Shown here piece after piece: positions 4,501 through 42,699 of a stretch of 47,608 nt of DNA (position 1 is the stretch's first letter; every line of letters starts with the position of its first letter). Location of the stretch: positions 1 to 47,608 of the IMG/VR virus record IMGVR_UViG_3300043570_000747; one strand, written 5' to 3'. Position numbers and translations under genes: made by a program. This DNA comes from a virus. The notes under the pieces were generated by a model. The model saw only the letters and a list, made by a program, of their open reading frames with translations, was not told the origin of the DNA and did no database searches.

Positions 4501-7224
4501 GCTTCCAAAAACCATTCTACGGGAGCCCGAGCCTTGGTTAATGTCGAGAGCATTTCCGCTTGCACCTGCAGTATTTTCATACACATAAAGTTGTCCGTTG
4601 GCGCTTAGTGACCCCAATACAGTTCCACTACTATTCTGCCATTCTTGCAAGTTTGCGGTTTGAGTAGAGTTTCCCTTAATGGTTAAGCCAATTATATTTT
4701 GGTTATTAACAATGTCCATAGTGTTAGATCCACCATAGTTACCCTGAACTCTTAAGCCACCTTGAGCCCAGGTACTTCCAGCAAGCGTTGCTCCACCAGT
4801 TGATATAATTTTTGCCAATACAGTTCCAGAACTATTCTGCCATTGTTGTAAATCTGCGGTTTGTGATGCTGCACCTCTTACGACTATTGGAGTTACTGAT
4901 GCACTAAATGTAGTCGCATTAAAATATCCAAGAGTTCCAGTATTCATAAGTCCGCCTGAATATAATGTTGAAACAACTGCCCTAGATGCAGTCATTCCAC
5001 CTACTGAATCCCACCAAGTTGTTGGTTGACCTAATGAATTTTGAATTTCCATTACAGACGATGTTTGTCCTGAAACTGCTTTAATAATTAAACCTGTATG
5101 TGCTTTATTTTGAGTTGAAATACTTATTGAAGCGGAAGGAAAAAAGTAACCTGTACCAACTGTTACAGTATCATTTGTTGTATTTGCAACAGTAAAGGAA
5201 TAAGAAGATCCAGCAGTAACAGTATCAATTGCTGTAACTTGATATGTACCATTATATCCTGATGGTGTTATTCCAAAAACTGTGACATATTCGCCAATCG
5301 AGATAGTTTGTTCAGTAGCAGAAAATGTATAGGTTGCGGTAGTTGAGGTAAATGAAACAGATGTAATTGCTTGAGAAACAGCAGATGCGGTAATAGGTGT
5401 TGTAGATCTAATAAATAATTGACCAATAGGGTTACTTCCGCTAAGTACTGCGCCAGTGCTGCTTTGCAACTCAGTTAAATTCTTAGTCTGTCCAGATACC
5501 GCTTTAACTACTATACCTTTAAGGTCTGATTCATTTAAAATATTTAAATTAGCGCCTAAATCTTGGTTGCCTCTAAATATTCTTCCTCCAGTTATATAAA
5601 AATCTCCAAATTGATTAACTCTTGCTAACGTTGTTCCGCTATTATTTTGCCACTCTTGAAGAGATGTATTTTGAGAGGCAGCGCCTCTTATTGCAAGTCC
5701 AACTAAGGATGGATCTAAATTAGATATACTTGCAGAATATAGGCCATCTAACGTTGAGCCAACTCTGATATATGGAAATCTTCCTACACCAGTCGCATCA
5801 ACCTTAGCCAACACAGTTCCAGAACTGTTTTGCCACTCCTGTAGATTGGCAGTTTGAGAGGCAAAGCCTCTTAACACTAAACCAATTGTTGAAGCGTTTG
5901 CGGTAATTGCACTTAATTGTCCCAGATATCCAAGTGCTTGAGTATTTGCAGATATTTTACCATAGTAAGCGTTTATATTGTTTGTTACACCTAAATTTGA
6001 AAAAGTCGCAAGACCAGCGTTGCTTATAGAAGATACTACACCACCAGCACTGTTTTGCCATTCTTGAAGATTAGCGGTTTGTGAGGCTACACCTTTGACA
6101 GTGAGAGTCACATTTGTTGTGACATTTGTTGTAAACCGTGGGCCCGTAGACAACATATTTAACTGTGCGTTGTTGAAAGAAGTAATAGCATAGATATTTG
6201 AAATTCTAAAATCACCAGTAGATGTTAGGCTTGCGTTAATTGCACCAGTACTGTCTTGCCATTCTTGAAGGCTAGCAGTCTGAGATACTGCACCTTTAAC
6301 AAGTATTCCAATTTGAGCAGCAGTTGTATATGCATTTATTGCTGCAGTTGTAGAGCCAGAACCAGAACGAATTCCATTGAATACGGCATTTCCACCTGAA
6401 CCAACAAGCGCTTTTACGGTACCAGTGTTGTCTTGCCATTCTTGTAAATTTGCGGTTTGTGAAGTTGAGCCTTTAATAACAAGCGGAACTGTAGAGCTAG
6501 TAGACTGTAGTGTATTAGTATTTTTCCACGTAGATGTAGATGAATCATACGCAAGGATGTTTCCATTTAGTAGTGAAGATATTTCTACATTGTGTAACTC
6601 TTGTAATTCAAATCCATTTTGAATCTTTACATACATTGATCCTGTATTTGCTTGTCCGCCTCTAATTACTATACCTAAAAATACTAAATGTGCTGGAGCG
6701 GAAGGTTTATTTAACAAGCCATATATTTTTGCTCCGTTTACGCCTAACCATACTGGATCTCCGTCTACCGCTCCAGTTGTATCAATTCCTTCAAGTATTC
6801 CTTCAGAGATTACCTGCCCGTTGCTATTATTAGAAATAGCAGATGTTGTAAGCCCCATTGTTTTTGAAGAAGTGGATTCTGATGCGTTTGAAGCAGCAGA
6901 TATAAGCATCTTTCCAGATGAGCCTTCTGATCCACTAACATAAACAGGAGTGGCTTTTACAAAATTAGAACCTGATTGATTTCTTACATCTTGATAAATA
7001 GATTTTGCTCCTGAAACTGCAGAGGTTACAAGAGATTCAAGTTGAGCAATTTTATAATCATGAGATGTTGTAATTGCAGAATTGTTTGCACCAACTTTAG
7101 CTTCAAGCGCTTCAATTGCATCGTTAGCATTTGAATGTTGGTCTGCGTGAGAAGGACTATTTATTGGGCTAGCAGAAGTAGGGTTTGTAAAGTTATCTAA
7201 AGAGCCAGGATAATTAATTGCCAT
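1513..7224 (-). CDS. giant repeat-containing tail fibre/appendage protein (1903 aa)
   Basis: A long Ser/Thr/Gly/Asn-rich protein, typical of trimeric phage fibres. I count 18 copies of a module with consensus (K/R)G-x-x-SQTANLQEWQ(N/D)SSGTVLAKV followed by a short G-F/L turn, spaced irregularly from about residue 245 to 1730. The N-terminus (MAINYPGSLDNF..., residues 1-210) lacks repeats and is a likely attachment domain. A SGNLTVNGTTTNLNSVNLVI module near residue 1390 is shared with the paralogue and resembles one in the 7475-8674 product. The C-terminal 100 residues are also shared with the paralogue. The start overlaps the upstream stop as TAATG. Function as a fibre is inferred from composition, repeats and position. 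Confidence 0.8.
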   Translation of the reverse strand: MAINYPGSLDNFTNPTSASPINSPSHADQHSNANDAIEALEAKVGANNSAITTSHDYKIAQLESLVTSAVSGAKSIYQDVRNQSGSNFVKATPVYVSGSEGSSGKMLISAASNASESTSSKTMGLTTSAISNNSNGQVISEGILEGIDTTGAVDGDPVWLGVNGAKIYGLLNKPSAPAHLVFLGIVIRGGQANTGSMYVKIQNGFELQELHNVEISSLLNGNILAYDSSTSTWKNTNTLQSTSSTVPLVIKGSTSQTANLQEWQDNTGTVKALVGSGGNAVFNGIRSGSGSTTAAINAYTTAAQIGILVKGAVSQTASLQEWQDSTGAINASLTSTGDFRISNIYAITSFNNAQLNMLSTGPRFTTNVTTNVTLTVKGVASQTANLQEWQNSAGGVVSSISNAGLATFSNLGVTNNINAYYGKISANTQALGYLGQLSAITANASTIGLVLRGFASQTANLQEWQNSSGTVLAKVDATGVGRFPYIRVGSTLDGLYSASISNLDPSLVGLAIRGAASQNTSLQEWQNNSGTTLARVNQFGDFYITGGRIFRGNQDLGANLNILNESDLKGIVVKAVSGQTKNLTELQSSTGAVLSGSNPIGQLFIRSTTPITASAVSQAITSVSFTSTTATYTFSATEQTISIGEYVTVFGITPSGYNGTYQVTAIDTVTAGSSYSFTVANTTNDTVTVGTGYFFPSASISISTQNKAHTGLIIKAVSGQTSSVMEIQNSLGQPTTWWDSVGGMTASRAVVSTLYSGGLMNTGTLGYFNATTFSASVTPIVVRGAASQTADLQQWQNSSGTVLAKIISTGGATLAGSTWAQGGLRVQGNYGGSNTMDIVNNQNIIGLTIKGNSTQTANLQEWQNSSGTVLGSLSANGQLYVYENTAGASGNALDINQGSGSRRMVFGSGGLNVGSTASVGSATWNALAQFEVYPAVASRIGIVIKGAASQIADLQQWQDSAGTALAGIGPNGRIYAQGKTGNTDDLLYLRRADNNIYMYVDKDATLRGNFGIRINQEPPIDTQAFMWSGTASRSALGVSGTGSTNPTFYAKATASQTSNLTEWQDSSGTALSYIKSDGSLNFIANSNSVLISGTSTSGFNRIISNGNDLSFSPYFDGLFAPANSAGRWRPANDATSDLGSSGQRWKDLYATSGILTNNSISKVGLIVKAIASQTANLQEWQDSAGTVLLSVGSSGRLLASARVGINDSSYTGTFNVTSFTAGAPIAILKGAASQTANLQEWQNSSGIVLASISAFGRLNSTYKASFSNSNFTITPVVEIISTGTGANSQGLIVKGASGQTANLQEWQDSSGAVLSKVDKDGNITAADLTLSGNLTVNGTTTNLNSVNLVIEDKNIIIADVATPTDTTADGAGITIKGATDKTFNWVQSTGRFTSSEPIQSSAFVSTYVYASQVGSTVIGSATLNTNSDTGGLLINTAGAANKGLTIRGAASQTANLQQWQDSNGSVLSRVQADGTFVWGSASSALQNSSGRLIVNLGSATSVGVTVKGFTSQTANLQEWQNSDAVSVAQISATGTVTIRPVGFSGNLNTAIISVTDRASTWTPGNFAFRSDSNGTPRFSFTAPNAPSEALTINGNYVGVQTPSPTSVFQVTSNGAGNTVSIIKGAVSQTANLQEWQNSAGYAGTAIDSGGSFYAPGIYSSYLMQATAGGAAVVPLTVKGVTSQTANLTEWKDSAGNAQAYVRYDGFINTNSSIRIAGDNLSVYRFQGVSDGNYTMNFPGSGNIQLFSATDSLGGGSKVLGISNATTVPSSNPTGGGILYVSSGSLVYRGAGGAITTIARSGNESSTISANTATTVDTVALSSFTTIEYTISIKQGSKVRSSKVLVHTDGTSIDSTEYGIMEMGGGITGILVTASVSSTNSILQVTITDAATTNATVKLIKTML

Positions 7225-21109: not shown

Positions 21110-21266
21110 TCAACTAGCGAAACAGGGACAGTTTAGAGAGTATCTAGTCCAATGTCGTAAGTAAGAACTCTCTCCCTTCGGGGAAGTCCCAAAAGGCGAA
21201 ATGGGGGGACTATAAAATACCCAAAGTAGCATACCTGAGCAAGTATGGTTAAAAGGCTCAACACAA
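21110..21266 (+). other. structured 3' region / intergenic
   Basis: No gene on the plus strand. Several self-complementary parts: AGAGAGT with ACTCTCT, and the pseudoknot element at 21230-21261. A minus-strand frame (21133-21381) overlaps the next real gene and is not supported. Confidence 0.4.
21230..21261 (+). promoter_or_regulatory. CTGAG-loop pseudoknot element, copy 1
   Basis: CATAC-CTGAGCAA-GTATG forms a 5-bp stem with an 8-nt loop. Loop TGAGC (21236-21240) can pair with GCTCA (21256-21260) after an A-rich linker, giving an H-type pseudoknot. Same architecture as 21747-21775 and 42183-42211, but this copy precedes a promoter, not a start codon. Confidence 0.5.
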
Positions 21267-21319: not shown

Positions 21320-21736
21320 ATGTCAAGACAAATCACAGTAAAGGTAGCAACAACCAAAGTAATCAAGGCACTAGAAGGCACACTCGCTAAACTAGAGAAA
21401 GATTACACATCACAATCAGCAAATGAAGCAAAGTATAACAAGGCGGTAGAAGCGTGGCGCAAGGAAATTGGTAAGTGGGCTATTGCTAACTTCTCAAAGG
21501 CTGAAAACCTACGCACAAACTATCGCAACTGGAACAACACTCTCAATGTTGATTTTGACATCATCACAAAAGAAGGTGGGTTTCCTACTGAACCTGAAAA
21601 GGATTTTGAGGTTATCCATCAGCACACTTATCGTGAGATGAAAGAGGACATCACAAATGCCCTAACAATTCTCAAGATGACAGATGAGGAAACAGTAAAT
21701 GCTTCCACAATGAAGCAGATTGCTAAGTATCTCTAA
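21320..21736 (+). CDS. hypothetical helical protein
   Basis: 138 residues, Lys/Glu-rich and mostly helical (TTKVIKALEGTLAKLEKDYTSQSANEAKYNKAVEAWRKEIGKWAIANF). A coiled-coil segment is likely at residues 15-60. Ribosome site CGAAAGG. Recurrent in actinophages by pattern, but no function known to me. Confidence 0.65.
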   Translation: MSRQITVKVATTKVIKALEGTLAKLEKDYTSQSANEAKYNKAVEAWRKEIGKWAIANFSKAENLRTNYRNWNNTLNVDFDIITKEGGFPTEPEKDFEVIHQHTYREMKEDITNALTILKMTDEETVNASTMKQIAKYL

Positions 21737-21746
21737 ATAAATACAA

Positions 21747-21787
21747 CGACCTGAGTATGTCGCCAAACTGCTCACACCTTCGGGTGT
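21747..21787 (+). promoter_or_regulatory. CTGAG-loop pseudoknot element, copy 2, in a 5' leader
   Basis: CGAC-CTGAGTAT-GTCG hairpin (21747-21762). Loop TGAG (21752-21755) is complementary to CTCA (21771-21774). A UUCG-capped hairpin ACACC-TTCG-GGTGT follows (21774-21787, sharing one base). Lies 23-63 nt before ATG 21810, so it could act on translation of that gene. Confidence 0.6.
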
Positions 21788-22275: not shown

Positions 22276-23283
22276 ATGGCTCATAATCTAGAAATGGAAA
22301 ACGGCGAAGTTGCTTTTGCTCTTCGTGGTGCTCCTGCTTGGCATAATCTTGCCAACCGCATCTTTACAAAAGATGAGGAAGTTACAACTAGTCTAATGCT
22401 TGAAGAGGCAAAATTGGCTAATTGGAATGTTCGCTTGTCTCCACTAACTGAACACATTTCAGAATCTTGGAATGATGTATCAGATGCATCTCTTGTCATT
22501 CGTGACAACCCATTCAACAAGGGCATAGATGTTCTTGCAACTGTTGGAAAGCGTTACAAGCCTGTGCAGAATGAAGAGTTATTTGCATTTGCTGATGCTA
22601 TTCACGATGCCAATGCTGATTGCCGTTGGGAATCCGCTGGCTCATTGAAGAAGGGTAAAGTTGTATTTGGAACTGTAGATATTCCACGCACAATGGTTCT
22701 TGACCCACAAGGTGCTAACGATGAGACAAAACTTTATCTTATCGTATGGACATCACACGATGGTTCTGTTGCTGTTCAAGCAGCCGTTACACCTGTTCGT
22801 GTTGTTTGCCAAAACACATTGAATCTTGCAATGCGTAATGCAAAGCAATCTTTCAAGATTCGTCACACACAATCTGTTGAAGGTCGTATTCAGGTTGCTC
22901 GTGAGACTCTTGGTCTTGCTCTTGGTTATTTCGATGAGTTTGAAATTGAAGCAAAAGCGCTTTACTCTCAAGCAATCACCGATGCTGAATTTTCAAAGTT
23001 GATTCAGACTATTTATCCAAAGCCAGATAAAGATGCAGCAAAAGTTGCTCTAACTAAGTGGGAGAATAAGGTTGTATTGCTTGATGACCTTTATCATAAC
23101 TCACCAACTAACGCTACAATCAAGGGAACAAAGTGGGGTGCGTTCAATGCACTAACTGAGCGCCTTGATTATTTCCGTTCAGGTCGTGGCAATTCTGAAA
23201 CACTAATGGCTGGTGCATCAGGCTTTGACCCAATTCTTACCGCCGAGAAAAATAAAATTCTCAAGTTGGTAAAATCATTCTAA
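22276..23283 (+). CDS. DUF932 / TIGR03299-like phage-plasmid protein
   Basis: 335 residues. PAWHNLANRIFTKDEEVTTSLMLEEAKLANWNVRLSPL near the N-terminus, YKPVQNEELFAFADAI in the middle, then PVRVVCQNTLNLAMRNAKQSFKIRHTQSVEGRI. These follow the phage/plasmid-like TIGR03299 family (DUF932). Function unknown; common in actinophages and plasmids. It is the largest gene of the plus-strand early region, with its own promoter and a strong terminator. Confidence 0.8.
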   Translation: MAHNLEMENGEVAFALRGAPAWHNLANRIFTKDEEVTTSLMLEEAKLANWNVRLSPLTEHISESWNDVSDASLVIRDNPFNKGIDVLATVGKRYKPVQNEELFAFADAIHDANADCRWESAGSLKKGKVVFGTVDIPRTMVLDPQGANDETKLYLIVWTSHDGSVAVQAAVTPVRVVCQNTLNLAMRNAKQSFKIRHTQSVEGRIQVARETLGLALGYFDEFEIEAKALYSQAITDAEFSKLIQTIYPKPDKDAAKVALTKWENKVVLLDDLYHNSPTNATIKGTKWGAFNALTERLDYFRSGRGNSETLMAGASGFDPILTAEKNKILKLVKSF

Positions 23284-23297
23284 CAAAATGATTTGCG

Positions 23298-23327
23298 ACG
23301 GGGGAGAATAAAATCTCCCCCGTTTTC
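23298..23327 (+). terminator. intrinsic terminator
   Basis: ACGGGGGAGA (23298-23307) pairs perfectly with TCTCCCCCGT (23314-23323), loop of 6, then TTTTC. Confidence 0.85.
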
Positions 23328-23331
23328 ATTT

Positions 23332-23408
23332 GATCCATTAGCTCAGTTGGTTAGAGCGCTACCCTGTCACGGTAGAGGCCGTCGGTTCAAGTCCGATATG
23401 GGTCGCCA
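23332..23408 (+). tRNA. tRNA-Asp (GTC)
   Basis: 77 nt with encoded CCA. Acceptor GATCCAT/ATGGGTC, D-arm AGCTCAGTTGGTTAGAGC, anticodon stem-loop CTACC-CTGTCAC-GGTAG (anticodon GTC), T-arm with GTTCAAG. The only tRNA on the plus strand; the other six are on the minus strand and lack the encoded CCA. Confidence 0.95.
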
Positions 23409-41974: not shown

Positions 41975-42163
41975 CTACTTAGGATTATCTGTTTTATAAA
42001 ATCCATTACCTTTAAATTGTATACCGAATGGTGTAAATTGTCTTGTCATTTGTGCATTACATTCTTCACAAATGTATCCTGGATCATTTTCAGAAATTGA
42101 TCTTGTTACAGAAAGTGTTGCGTGGGCATCATCTTCTAGGCACTTATATTCATATACTGGCAT
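41975..42163 (-). CDS. FmdB-like zinc-ribbon protein
   Basis: 62 residues: MPVYEYKCLEDDAHATLSVTRSISENDPGYICEECNAQMTRQF. P-x-Y-x-Y-x-C start, then C-x-x-C, matches the FmdB/putative regulatory zinc-ribbon family, with the first Cys pair reduced to one Cys. Its leader carries a highly structured RNA including the CTGAG pseudoknot element. Confidence 0.75.
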   Translation of the reverse strand: MPVYEYKCLEDDAHATLSVTRSISENDPGYICEECNAQMTRQFTPFGIQFKGNGFYKTDNPK

Positions 42164-42262
42164 TACTTGTCCTTTAATGTTGGTGAGCAGTTTGGGGACA
42201 TACTCAGGTCCATCCTGCGGGTAGCAGCCCGCTATCTGCGACTCCCCGATGAAGGGGTGCAG
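42164..42262 (-). promoter_or_regulatory. structured 5' leader, riboswitch-like
   Basis: Minus strand, after TATAAT (42268-42273). Helix ATCTGC/GCAGAT enclosing CCCC-TTCATC-GGGG; then GCGGG-CTGCTA-CCCGC; then pseudoknot GGAC-CTGAGTAT-GTCC (42196-42211) with loop TGAG pairing CTCA (42184-42187). AAAGGA and ATG 42163 follow within 20 nt. Confidence 0.6.
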
Positions 42263-42276
42263 ATTTCTATTATACC

Positions 42277-42699
42277 TTATTTGATTTTAATTGTTTTTGG
42301 TTTCTTTTCTTCTGGAACAATACGTTCCAAAGAAATACGCAACATGCCGTCTTTTACTTCGGCACCAGTAACTTCAATAAATTCTGCTAATGCAAATTCA
42401 CGAGTAAACTTGCGAGCTGCAATTCCTTTATGAATTACTTTTTCTCCAGATACTTCTGTTTTAATTTCTCCTTTAACTACAAGAGTTTGTTCATTTACAG
42501 AAATGTCTAAATCAGTTCTTGAAAATCCTGCCACTGCTATTTCAATGCAAAATGAGTCTTCATCTTCCATTTGAATTACATTATATGGTGGATAGGTTGA
42601 TTGTGCTGAGTGATTTTGGATTCTAGATAGTCTTTCAAAATCTCTATTGAATCCGATAAAAAATGGATCATTAAAAAAATCCAAAGTTGTTGTTACCAT
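42277..42699 (-). CDS. Hsp20 small heat-shock protein
   Basis: 140 residues. Alpha-crystallin domain: YNVIQMEDEDSFCIEIAVAGFSRTDLDISVNEQTLVVKGEIK...RKFTREFALAEFIEVTGAEVKDGMLRISLERIVPEEKKPKTIKI, ending in the family's I-x-I motif (IKIK). ATP-independent holdase in the cytoplasm; Hsp20 genes are known in cyanophages and T4-like phages, where they may help virion assembly. Leader has an AT-rich stem TTAGTA/TACTAA; no ribosome site inside it, so no thermosensor can be claimed. Confidence 0.93.
   Translation of the reverse strand: MVTTTLDFFNDPFFIGFNRDFERLSRIQNHSAQSTYPPYNVIQMEDEDSFCIEIAVAGFSRTDLDISVNEQTLVVKGEIKTEVSGEKVIHKGIAARKFTREFALAEFIEVTGAEVKDGMLRISLERIVPEEKKPKTIKIK

Follow-up and report, generated by a model that had tools for sequence, protein, structure and literature searches.

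The xrRNAs of RNA viruses act against 5'-to-3' enzymes, and pseudoknot 1 of tmRNA, which is similar in size and loop pattern (short L1, A-rich L3) to the element described here, is part of a stable RNA ahead of the resume codon. In T4-type phages, an H-type pseudoknot in the 5' leader of a single gene, gene 32, lies 67 nt upstream of the start codon and is bound by gp32 (PMC3014915). Terminator structures shield the 3' ends of bacterial mRNAs from exonucleases (PMC3997798), and a proposed role of phage hammerheads is to divide long transcripts into mRNAs the length of a gene (PMC3088659). The present element, a compact pseudoknot of ~27 nt, shares with the gene 32 structure its H-type fold and its occurrence in phage mRNA, but T4's serves one gene's 5' leader. 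With the preQ1-I riboswitch it has in common a small H-type pseudoknot near a ribosome-binding site; its sequence differs, it lies downstream of genes, and it has no relevant Rfam match up to E = 10. Like terminator stem-loops and REP-type 3' stabilisers, it stands behind stop codons at gene boundaries within operons, and at one orthologous site a terminator hairpin takes its place. Unlike them, it is no GC hairpin but a pseudoknot whose core is strictly conserved, it usually lacks a U-run, and transcription must pass it where tRNAs come next. As a small pseudoknotted viral RNA predicted to stop an exonuclease it resembles the xrRNAs, from which it differs in direction, sequence, and fold.

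The window, a stretch of 47,608 nt from a virus (IMG/VR record IMGVR_UViG_3300043570_000747), contains the element between the end of an Hsp20 gene and the start of an FmdB-like gene, in the following arrangement:

42277–42699, minus strand: Hsp20 gene (Pfam HSP20, 1.9e-19), with which the pseudoknot tracks
42279–42277, minus strand: Hsp20 stop codon TAA, read from the sequence
42269–42274, minus strand: TATAAT box, at a constant distance to helix 1 in relatives; clear −35 absent
42234–42264, minus strand: helix 1, ATCTGC-A-CCCC-TTCATC-GGGG-AGTC-GCAGAT, beginning at the expected transcription start behind TATAAT; lineage-limited
42217–42232, minus strand: helix 2, GCGGG-CTGCTA-CCCGC; lineage-limited, missing in locus L042, with other stems in its place in relatives
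42185–42211, minus strand: pseudoknot copy 1, GGAC-CU-GAGUA-U-GUCC-CCAAAC-UGCUC (model R1, 38.6 bits, E 4.8e-10; covariation over 102 rows)
42170–42175, minus strand: AAAGGA, ribosome-site sequence before the FmdB-like ATG
41975–42163, minus strand: FmdB-like zinc-ribbon gene, 62 aa, ATG at 42163 (Zn_ribbon_8, 1.4e-7, slightly below the curated cut-off)

The initial annotation had described helix 1, helix 2, the CTGAG pseudoknot, AAAGGA, and the ATG exactly as they stand, base for base; the TATAAT promoter box that it placed at 42268–42273 is also present, one base away from that position. The FmdB-like gene is probably transcribed from this box, which is inserted after the Hsp20 stop and ahead of the pseudoknot. 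The FmdB-like ATG lies 21 nt past pseudoknot copy 1, which is built of S1 GGAC/GUCC, L1 CU, S2 GAGUA/UGCUC (with one U-G pair), L2 U, and L3 CCAAAC; the SD is outside it. Folding of the leader by RNAfold was unremarkable (z −1.27; 24/200 shuffles fold equally well), although RNAfold cannot model pseudoknots and single-strand folding is thus weak evidence for this one.

Helices 1 and 2 recur together with the TATAAT box in 55 distinct leaders at post-Hsp20 sites of the same phage group, and both are confined to such sites in one phage lineage. Some changes in these related leaders are compensatory: in helix 1, for example, UCCC/GGGA stands for CCCC/GGGG, and in helix 2 UUCGGG/CCCGAA for GCGGG/CCCGC. 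Helix 2 is dispensable, as locus L042 shows. The two helices behind TATAAT may be 5' elements of a transcript starting at that box, and they are the remaining possible candidate for an FmdB leader. Helix 1 (CTGCACCCC..GGGGAGTCGCAG) begins at the expected +1 behind the fixed TATAAT, and its AGTC internal loop is nearly invariant across window positions 42234–42264 and the 55 related leaders; it may be a separate 5'-end element. Different structured RNAs occupy the post-Hsp20 place in other relatives. At loci L532, L533, L549, L556, L561, and L565, another conserved RNA of ~75 nt (GTCCCCACA..GGATGGATTAGTTACCCA..TGTGGGGC), with no Rfam match, directly follows Hsp20 and replaces the pseudoknot; at loci L109, L235, L534, L549, and L556, a recurring GTCGGGGGAGACAGCGACACTAAATAACTGG, likewise with no match in Rfam, lies behind the post-Hsp20 promoter, and in some loci it precedes the pseudoknot.

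The compact pseudoknot element is real. Its consensus is NNNC-CU-GAGYA-N-GNNN-nn-AAAC-URCUC, an H-type fold with an S1 of 4 bp, L1 CU, an S2 of 5 bp, an L2 of 1 nt, and L3 nnAAAC. An exact 16-mer from copy 1 matches 75 viral stretches with unrelated surroundings. The pattern ACCTGAGNANGTNNNNAAACTNCTC has at least 120 matches in viral contigs, and in 84,980 bacterial and archaeal genomes it occurs in 104 stretches, many of them from Lactobacillaceae; others come from Patescibacteria, Chloroflexi, cyanobacteria, alphaproteobacteria, and further groups. The first pattern left both outer S1 pairs free, and position −1/+13 pairs in 154/154 distinct sequences, with all four Watson-Crick types represented. 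The next pair beyond four is depleted (30 observed, 53 expected), and S1 is therefore limited to 4 bp. A scan that also freed the third S1 pair brought the number of copies in 4.1 Mb of fetched loci to 592, a lower bound for viral contigs, with 0 in reversed sequence. These copies amount to 251 non-redundant contexts (ORFs were called by simple rules, and redundancy was removed through shared 13-mers). The S1 pairs form in 345/345, 338/345, and 273/345 cases, as against 177, 169, and 140 expected, and all pair types occur.

When 102 copies are aligned, standard pairs fill 96.4% of the pair cells, a level reached by 0/500 shuffles. Cells changed on both sides number 137 (43.8 in shuffles), and the covariation score is 0.440 against 0.151 in shuffles, again reached by 0/500; sliding the pairing partners by 1–3 columns lowers pairing to 26–40%. 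Because this comparison of paired cells, both-side changes, and compensatory changes shows conservation, the structure of the leader is not due to chance, and the suggestion of a conserved multi-helix RNA with a pseudoknot is borne out. At the fourth S2 position U-G pairs (95) outnumber C-A (17), which fixes the RNA strand. The core CU, AAAC, and GAG was partly imposed by the search patterns and its strictness is accordingly overstated, whereas pairing at the free positions is unaffected. Scanned against the 4227 families of Rfam 15, as had been proposed, neither copy 1 nor its counterpart in Roseobacter phage SIO1 reached a gathering threshold or had a relevant match even with E up to 10, two irrelevant matches aside, in keeping with the earlier failure to recognise a known riboswitch class. 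No prior description of the element was found in the open-access literature by sequence or topic, though it may be listed anonymously in a survey of structured RNAs; one such survey, covering viruses and phages, reportedly appeared in 2023.

A full second copy lies elsewhere in the window, where 0.02 would be expected by chance. It is accompanied by a variant copy and by a terminator-like hairpin at a place where relatives carry the pseudoknot:

21747–21773, plus strand: pseudoknot copy 2 (40.8 bits, E 1e-10), 10 nt past the stop of a 138-aa ORF, 21320–21736
21231–21259, plus strand: pseudoknot copy 3, variant AUAC/GUAU with AAAAGGCUC (14.4 bits); a possible promoter of ORF 21320 comes next
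23298–23326, plus strand: terminator-like hairpin ACGGGGGAGA..TCTCCCCCGT with TTTT, between ORF 22276–23283 and a tRNA, 23332–23405

The AAAAGG variant of copy 3 is also seen in loci L101, L105, and L117 and in DSS3phi2. The model also has a weak match at 5056–5081, within an ORF of 1903 aa on the opposite strand, which is taken as chance. Where relatives have the gene end that corresponds by orthology to that of ORF 22276–23283, the order ORF, pseudoknot, 2–12 nt, tRNA is common among relatives, whereas the window and locus L441 carry a GC-rich hairpin and T-run rather than the pseudoknot.

The initial annotation had read this leader as riboswitch-like, with a ligand or protein controlling access to the ribosome site of the FmdB-like gene; the distribution of the pseudoknot argues against that reading. 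FmdB relatives were compared over 98 distinct upstream contexts: 40/41 of those with Hsp20 upstream have the element, as against 1/57 of those with another gene there; the lone Hsp20-preceded exception, locus L092, has it with a longer loop. An FmdB-specific leader was rejected on its absence from the remaining 56 of those 57 contexts. Conversely, 43 of 51 distinct downstream contexts of phage Hsp20, fetched by Hsp20 homology alone, carry the element, and two more carry variants. Many loci entered the collection through the element itself; least affected by this bias are the sets for Hsp20 and FmdB and the annotated isolates.

The distance from stop codon to S1 peaks at 5–8 nt (39, 24, 14, and 12 cases at 5, 6, 7, and 8 nt; n = 237). 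The element is found most often 5–10 nt past a stop and almost never below 4; roughly half of the contexts have no detected stop within 12 nt. Among gaps of 100 nt or longer, 45/105 copies lie no more than 12 nt from a stop, against 6.2 expected under uniform placement (p ~1e-27), and only 6/105 lie 12–24 nt ahead of a start. The pseudoknot is thus tied in position to the upstream stop codon, not to the ribosome-binding site. Because it tracks Hsp20 upstream, peaks 5–8 nt past stops, and is seldom near starts, we regard it as a gene-end element; the tight packing of phage genomes could account for part of this spacing to stops. Its upstream neighbours include minor head and head-morphogenesis proteins, ribonucleotide reductase, and Hsp20, and the commonest downstream neighbours are head scaffolding proteins. 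Downstream genes are otherwise unrelated, with no conserved gene or pathway of the kind a riboswitch would serve, and the 251 non-redundant contexts, in which unrelated genes, tRNAs, promoters, and ribozymes come next, gave no hint of a ligand.

The 3' side of the element is distinctive. T-runs of at least 5 occur within 15 nt downstream in 35/235 contexts (5 in each control stretch), and runs of at least 4 in 66/235 (17–18 in control stretches). At −20 to −6 upstream, runs of at least 5 occur in 5/235, the same as in the control stretch; a terminator-before-element pattern, suspected in lactobacilli, is therefore not enriched overall. In 7 contexts a same-strand tRNA starts 5–14 nt downstream, the 50 nt upstream hold none, and in phage Amigo a tRNA-Gly begins 2 nt behind the element. 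Seven hammerhead cores lie downstream (six clear, and one in L302 doubtful) and 0 upstream, the expected number being 0.15; hammerhead stem III adjoins the pseudoknot, and the example in L277 scores 50.5 bits for RF00008. In the crAss-like phage cr7_1, the element belongs to the part of a permuted tmRNA that is removed, outside pseudoknot 1, and lies 4 nt ahead of the 5' acceptor strand (an RNase P site). From these U-runs, tRNAs, and ribozymes, we infer that RNA 3' ends often arise on the 3' side of the element; the element lies between a stop codon and this inferred end, as a 3'-end stabiliser should. Additionally, tRNAs 2–12 nt downstream leave no room for a promoter, so that the element need not terminate transcription. 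The permuted tmRNA of cr7_1 is itself phage-encoded (NC_055895 20629–20985, L594; RF04321, 66.4 bits), and at L210:11486–11558 a stretch of 73 nt, ~95 nt behind a pseudoknot copy, scores as tmRNA without the long middle part.

With a little better than even confidence, we suggest that the compact pseudoknot stabilises phage mRNA 3' ends. A long phage transcript would be cut or ended just behind the element, by RNase P at a tRNA or permuted tmRNA, by a hammerhead ribozyme, or at a U-run; alternatively, decay intermediates may form there. The pseudoknot left at the 3' end would stall 3'-to-5' exonucleases, and the upstream ORF would thereby survive up to its stop codon. The element would do the job of a terminator stem-loop without needing to stop transcription. 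Copy 1 of the window would serve the Hsp20 message, and the promoter and helices 1 and 2, located between the Hsp20 stop and the pseudoknot, would belong to transcription of the FmdB-like gene. This reading is favoured because it accounts for the link with the upstream stop, for the side on which tRNA, tmRNA, and hammerhead neighbours lie, for the replacement by a terminator hairpin, and for the independence from host and gene. Against it, some copies lie behind a terminator-like hairpin (L297, L304, L350, L361) and would be reached only through read-through, and promoter-proximal copies (copy 1 of the window, L168, L205) would fall within the 5' UTR of the transcript made there. The strictness of the core (CU, AAAC, and loops of fixed length) points beyond a passive barrier, for example to recognition by a protein. 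More tentatively, and with rather less than even confidence, the element may be one exonuclease-resistant pseudoknot common to DNA phages infecting many bacterial phyla, a counterpart of xrRNAs directed against 3'-to-5' decay, which together with tRNAs, permuted tmRNA, and hammerheads would form a common system for cutting and capping mRNA.

Other explanations account for parts of these data. Recoding pseudoknots touch the ribosome at a spacing of 5–8 nt, and the architecture of the element resembles that of frameshift-type pseudoknots. The sharp peak at this same spacing, with almost nothing below 4 nt, would fit an obstacle that blocks post-termination ribosomes and keeps the next start site, tRNA, or ribozyme free, but the U-runs, tRNAs, and hammerheads adjoining the 3' side would then be unexplained, as would copies far from stops, and we consider such a role unlikely. 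As a frameshift or readthrough signal proper the pseudoknot was rejected: stop spacings of 4–10 fall in all frames, with no reading-frame lock, and neither avoidance of the in-frame UGA within CCUGAG nor a common or slippery sequence ahead of the stop was found. The T-run enrichment, together with the replacement by a terminator hairpin at an orthologous site, is what would be expected if S2 and a U-run released RNA polymerase as a pseudoknot-type terminator or attenuator. Most copies, however, lack the U-run, tRNAs follow too closely to leave room for a promoter, and the copy in the N4-like phage DSS3phi2 lies just downstream of an RNAP2-like gene and is perhaps transcribed by a phage polymerase; we consider termination quite unlikely.

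Among the readings tied to the locus, support is weakest for a riboswitch or protein-controlled leader that would serve the FmdB-like gene. It draws on the structured leader between a promoter-like box and a ribosome site, yet the element follows Hsp20 rather than FmdB, has hundreds of unrelated neighbours, does not include the SD, and belongs to no Rfam class; we judge this reading very improbable. At 27 nt the element would be smaller than any natural self-cleaving class known to us, and a ribozyme would be redundant beside the hammerheads that it adjoins. Though its type of position is that of phage hammerheads (PMC3088659) and its unpaired core is conserved, a self-cleaving ribozyme or endonuclease processing site in long phage transcripts is thus highly doubtful. 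Equally little can be said for an RNA that modifies RNA polymerase in the manner of put-like antitermination: copies are repeated in operons and sometimes stand close behind promoters, but they are tied to stop codons, are directly followed by the promoter of the next unit in L172, L174, L203, and L232, and are present in phages with their own RNA polymerase. A 5' barrier specific to RNase J was not favoured, given the position of hammerheads and RNase P sites, which is 3' of the element, and the occurrence of variants in enterobacterial Chaseviridae, whose hosts are not known to have RNase J.

The element is intergenic in phages of many bacterial phyla, with several copies per genome in some. 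Searches of 50,697 phage records with blastn, followed by checks of the annotated regions, show it in Roseobacter SIO1, Celeribacter P12053L, Silicibacter DSS3phi2, Staphylococcus StB12, Bacillus Page, Arthrobacter Amigo, Lactobacillus phig1e and Lj771, Synechococcus S-EIVl, Cylindrospermopsis CrV, the crAss-like cr7_1, Mycobacterium Labelle, and Chaseviridae. For the most part it lies there in gaps without annotation; in phiEcoM-GJ1 it falls within a hypothetical ORF. The model built from the alignment detects it in 15/15 isolate records, including 7 copies in S-EIVl and 6 in CrV, and in the annotated S-EIVl genome 5/7 copies lie 5–11 nt past annotated stop codons. The same core is found across actinophages, cyanophages, roseophages, crAss-like phages, phages and prophages of Lactobacillus, Staphylococcus, and Bacillus, and Patescibacteria contigs, with variant copies in the enterobacterial Chaseviridae. 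A 27-nt RNA that keeps one core in so many phage groups must act on some universal part of RNA metabolism or translation in bacteria. The element is a short, modular RNA that isolated phages carry (SIO1, phig1e, Page, StB12, Lj771, S-EIVl), so its function is directly testable; it would also provide a portable mRNA-end element, as well as a family missing from Rfam.

Copies also appear in CRISPR arrays. In Ignavibacteria CP054675 (locus L356, 1–6740), four of ~100 spacers each contain a different pseudoknot copy, and several spacers of this array appear to be mRNA-sense (ribosome site and ATG); a Poribacteria array (L370) has one pseudoknot-bearing spacer. Contigs of Weissella muntiaci and W. 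viridescens (L285, L290, L334, L339, L341, L349, L365) hold several similar copies per genome ahead of different genes, sharing the frame ..TATATCAG-pseudoknot-AATTTTTAA..AGGTTAGGTTTAA.. among them. In Streptococcus (L328, L354, L358, L376), a conserved copy has a C-A mismatch in S2 and is followed by TTGTTCTTTGAAAATTGAATA.
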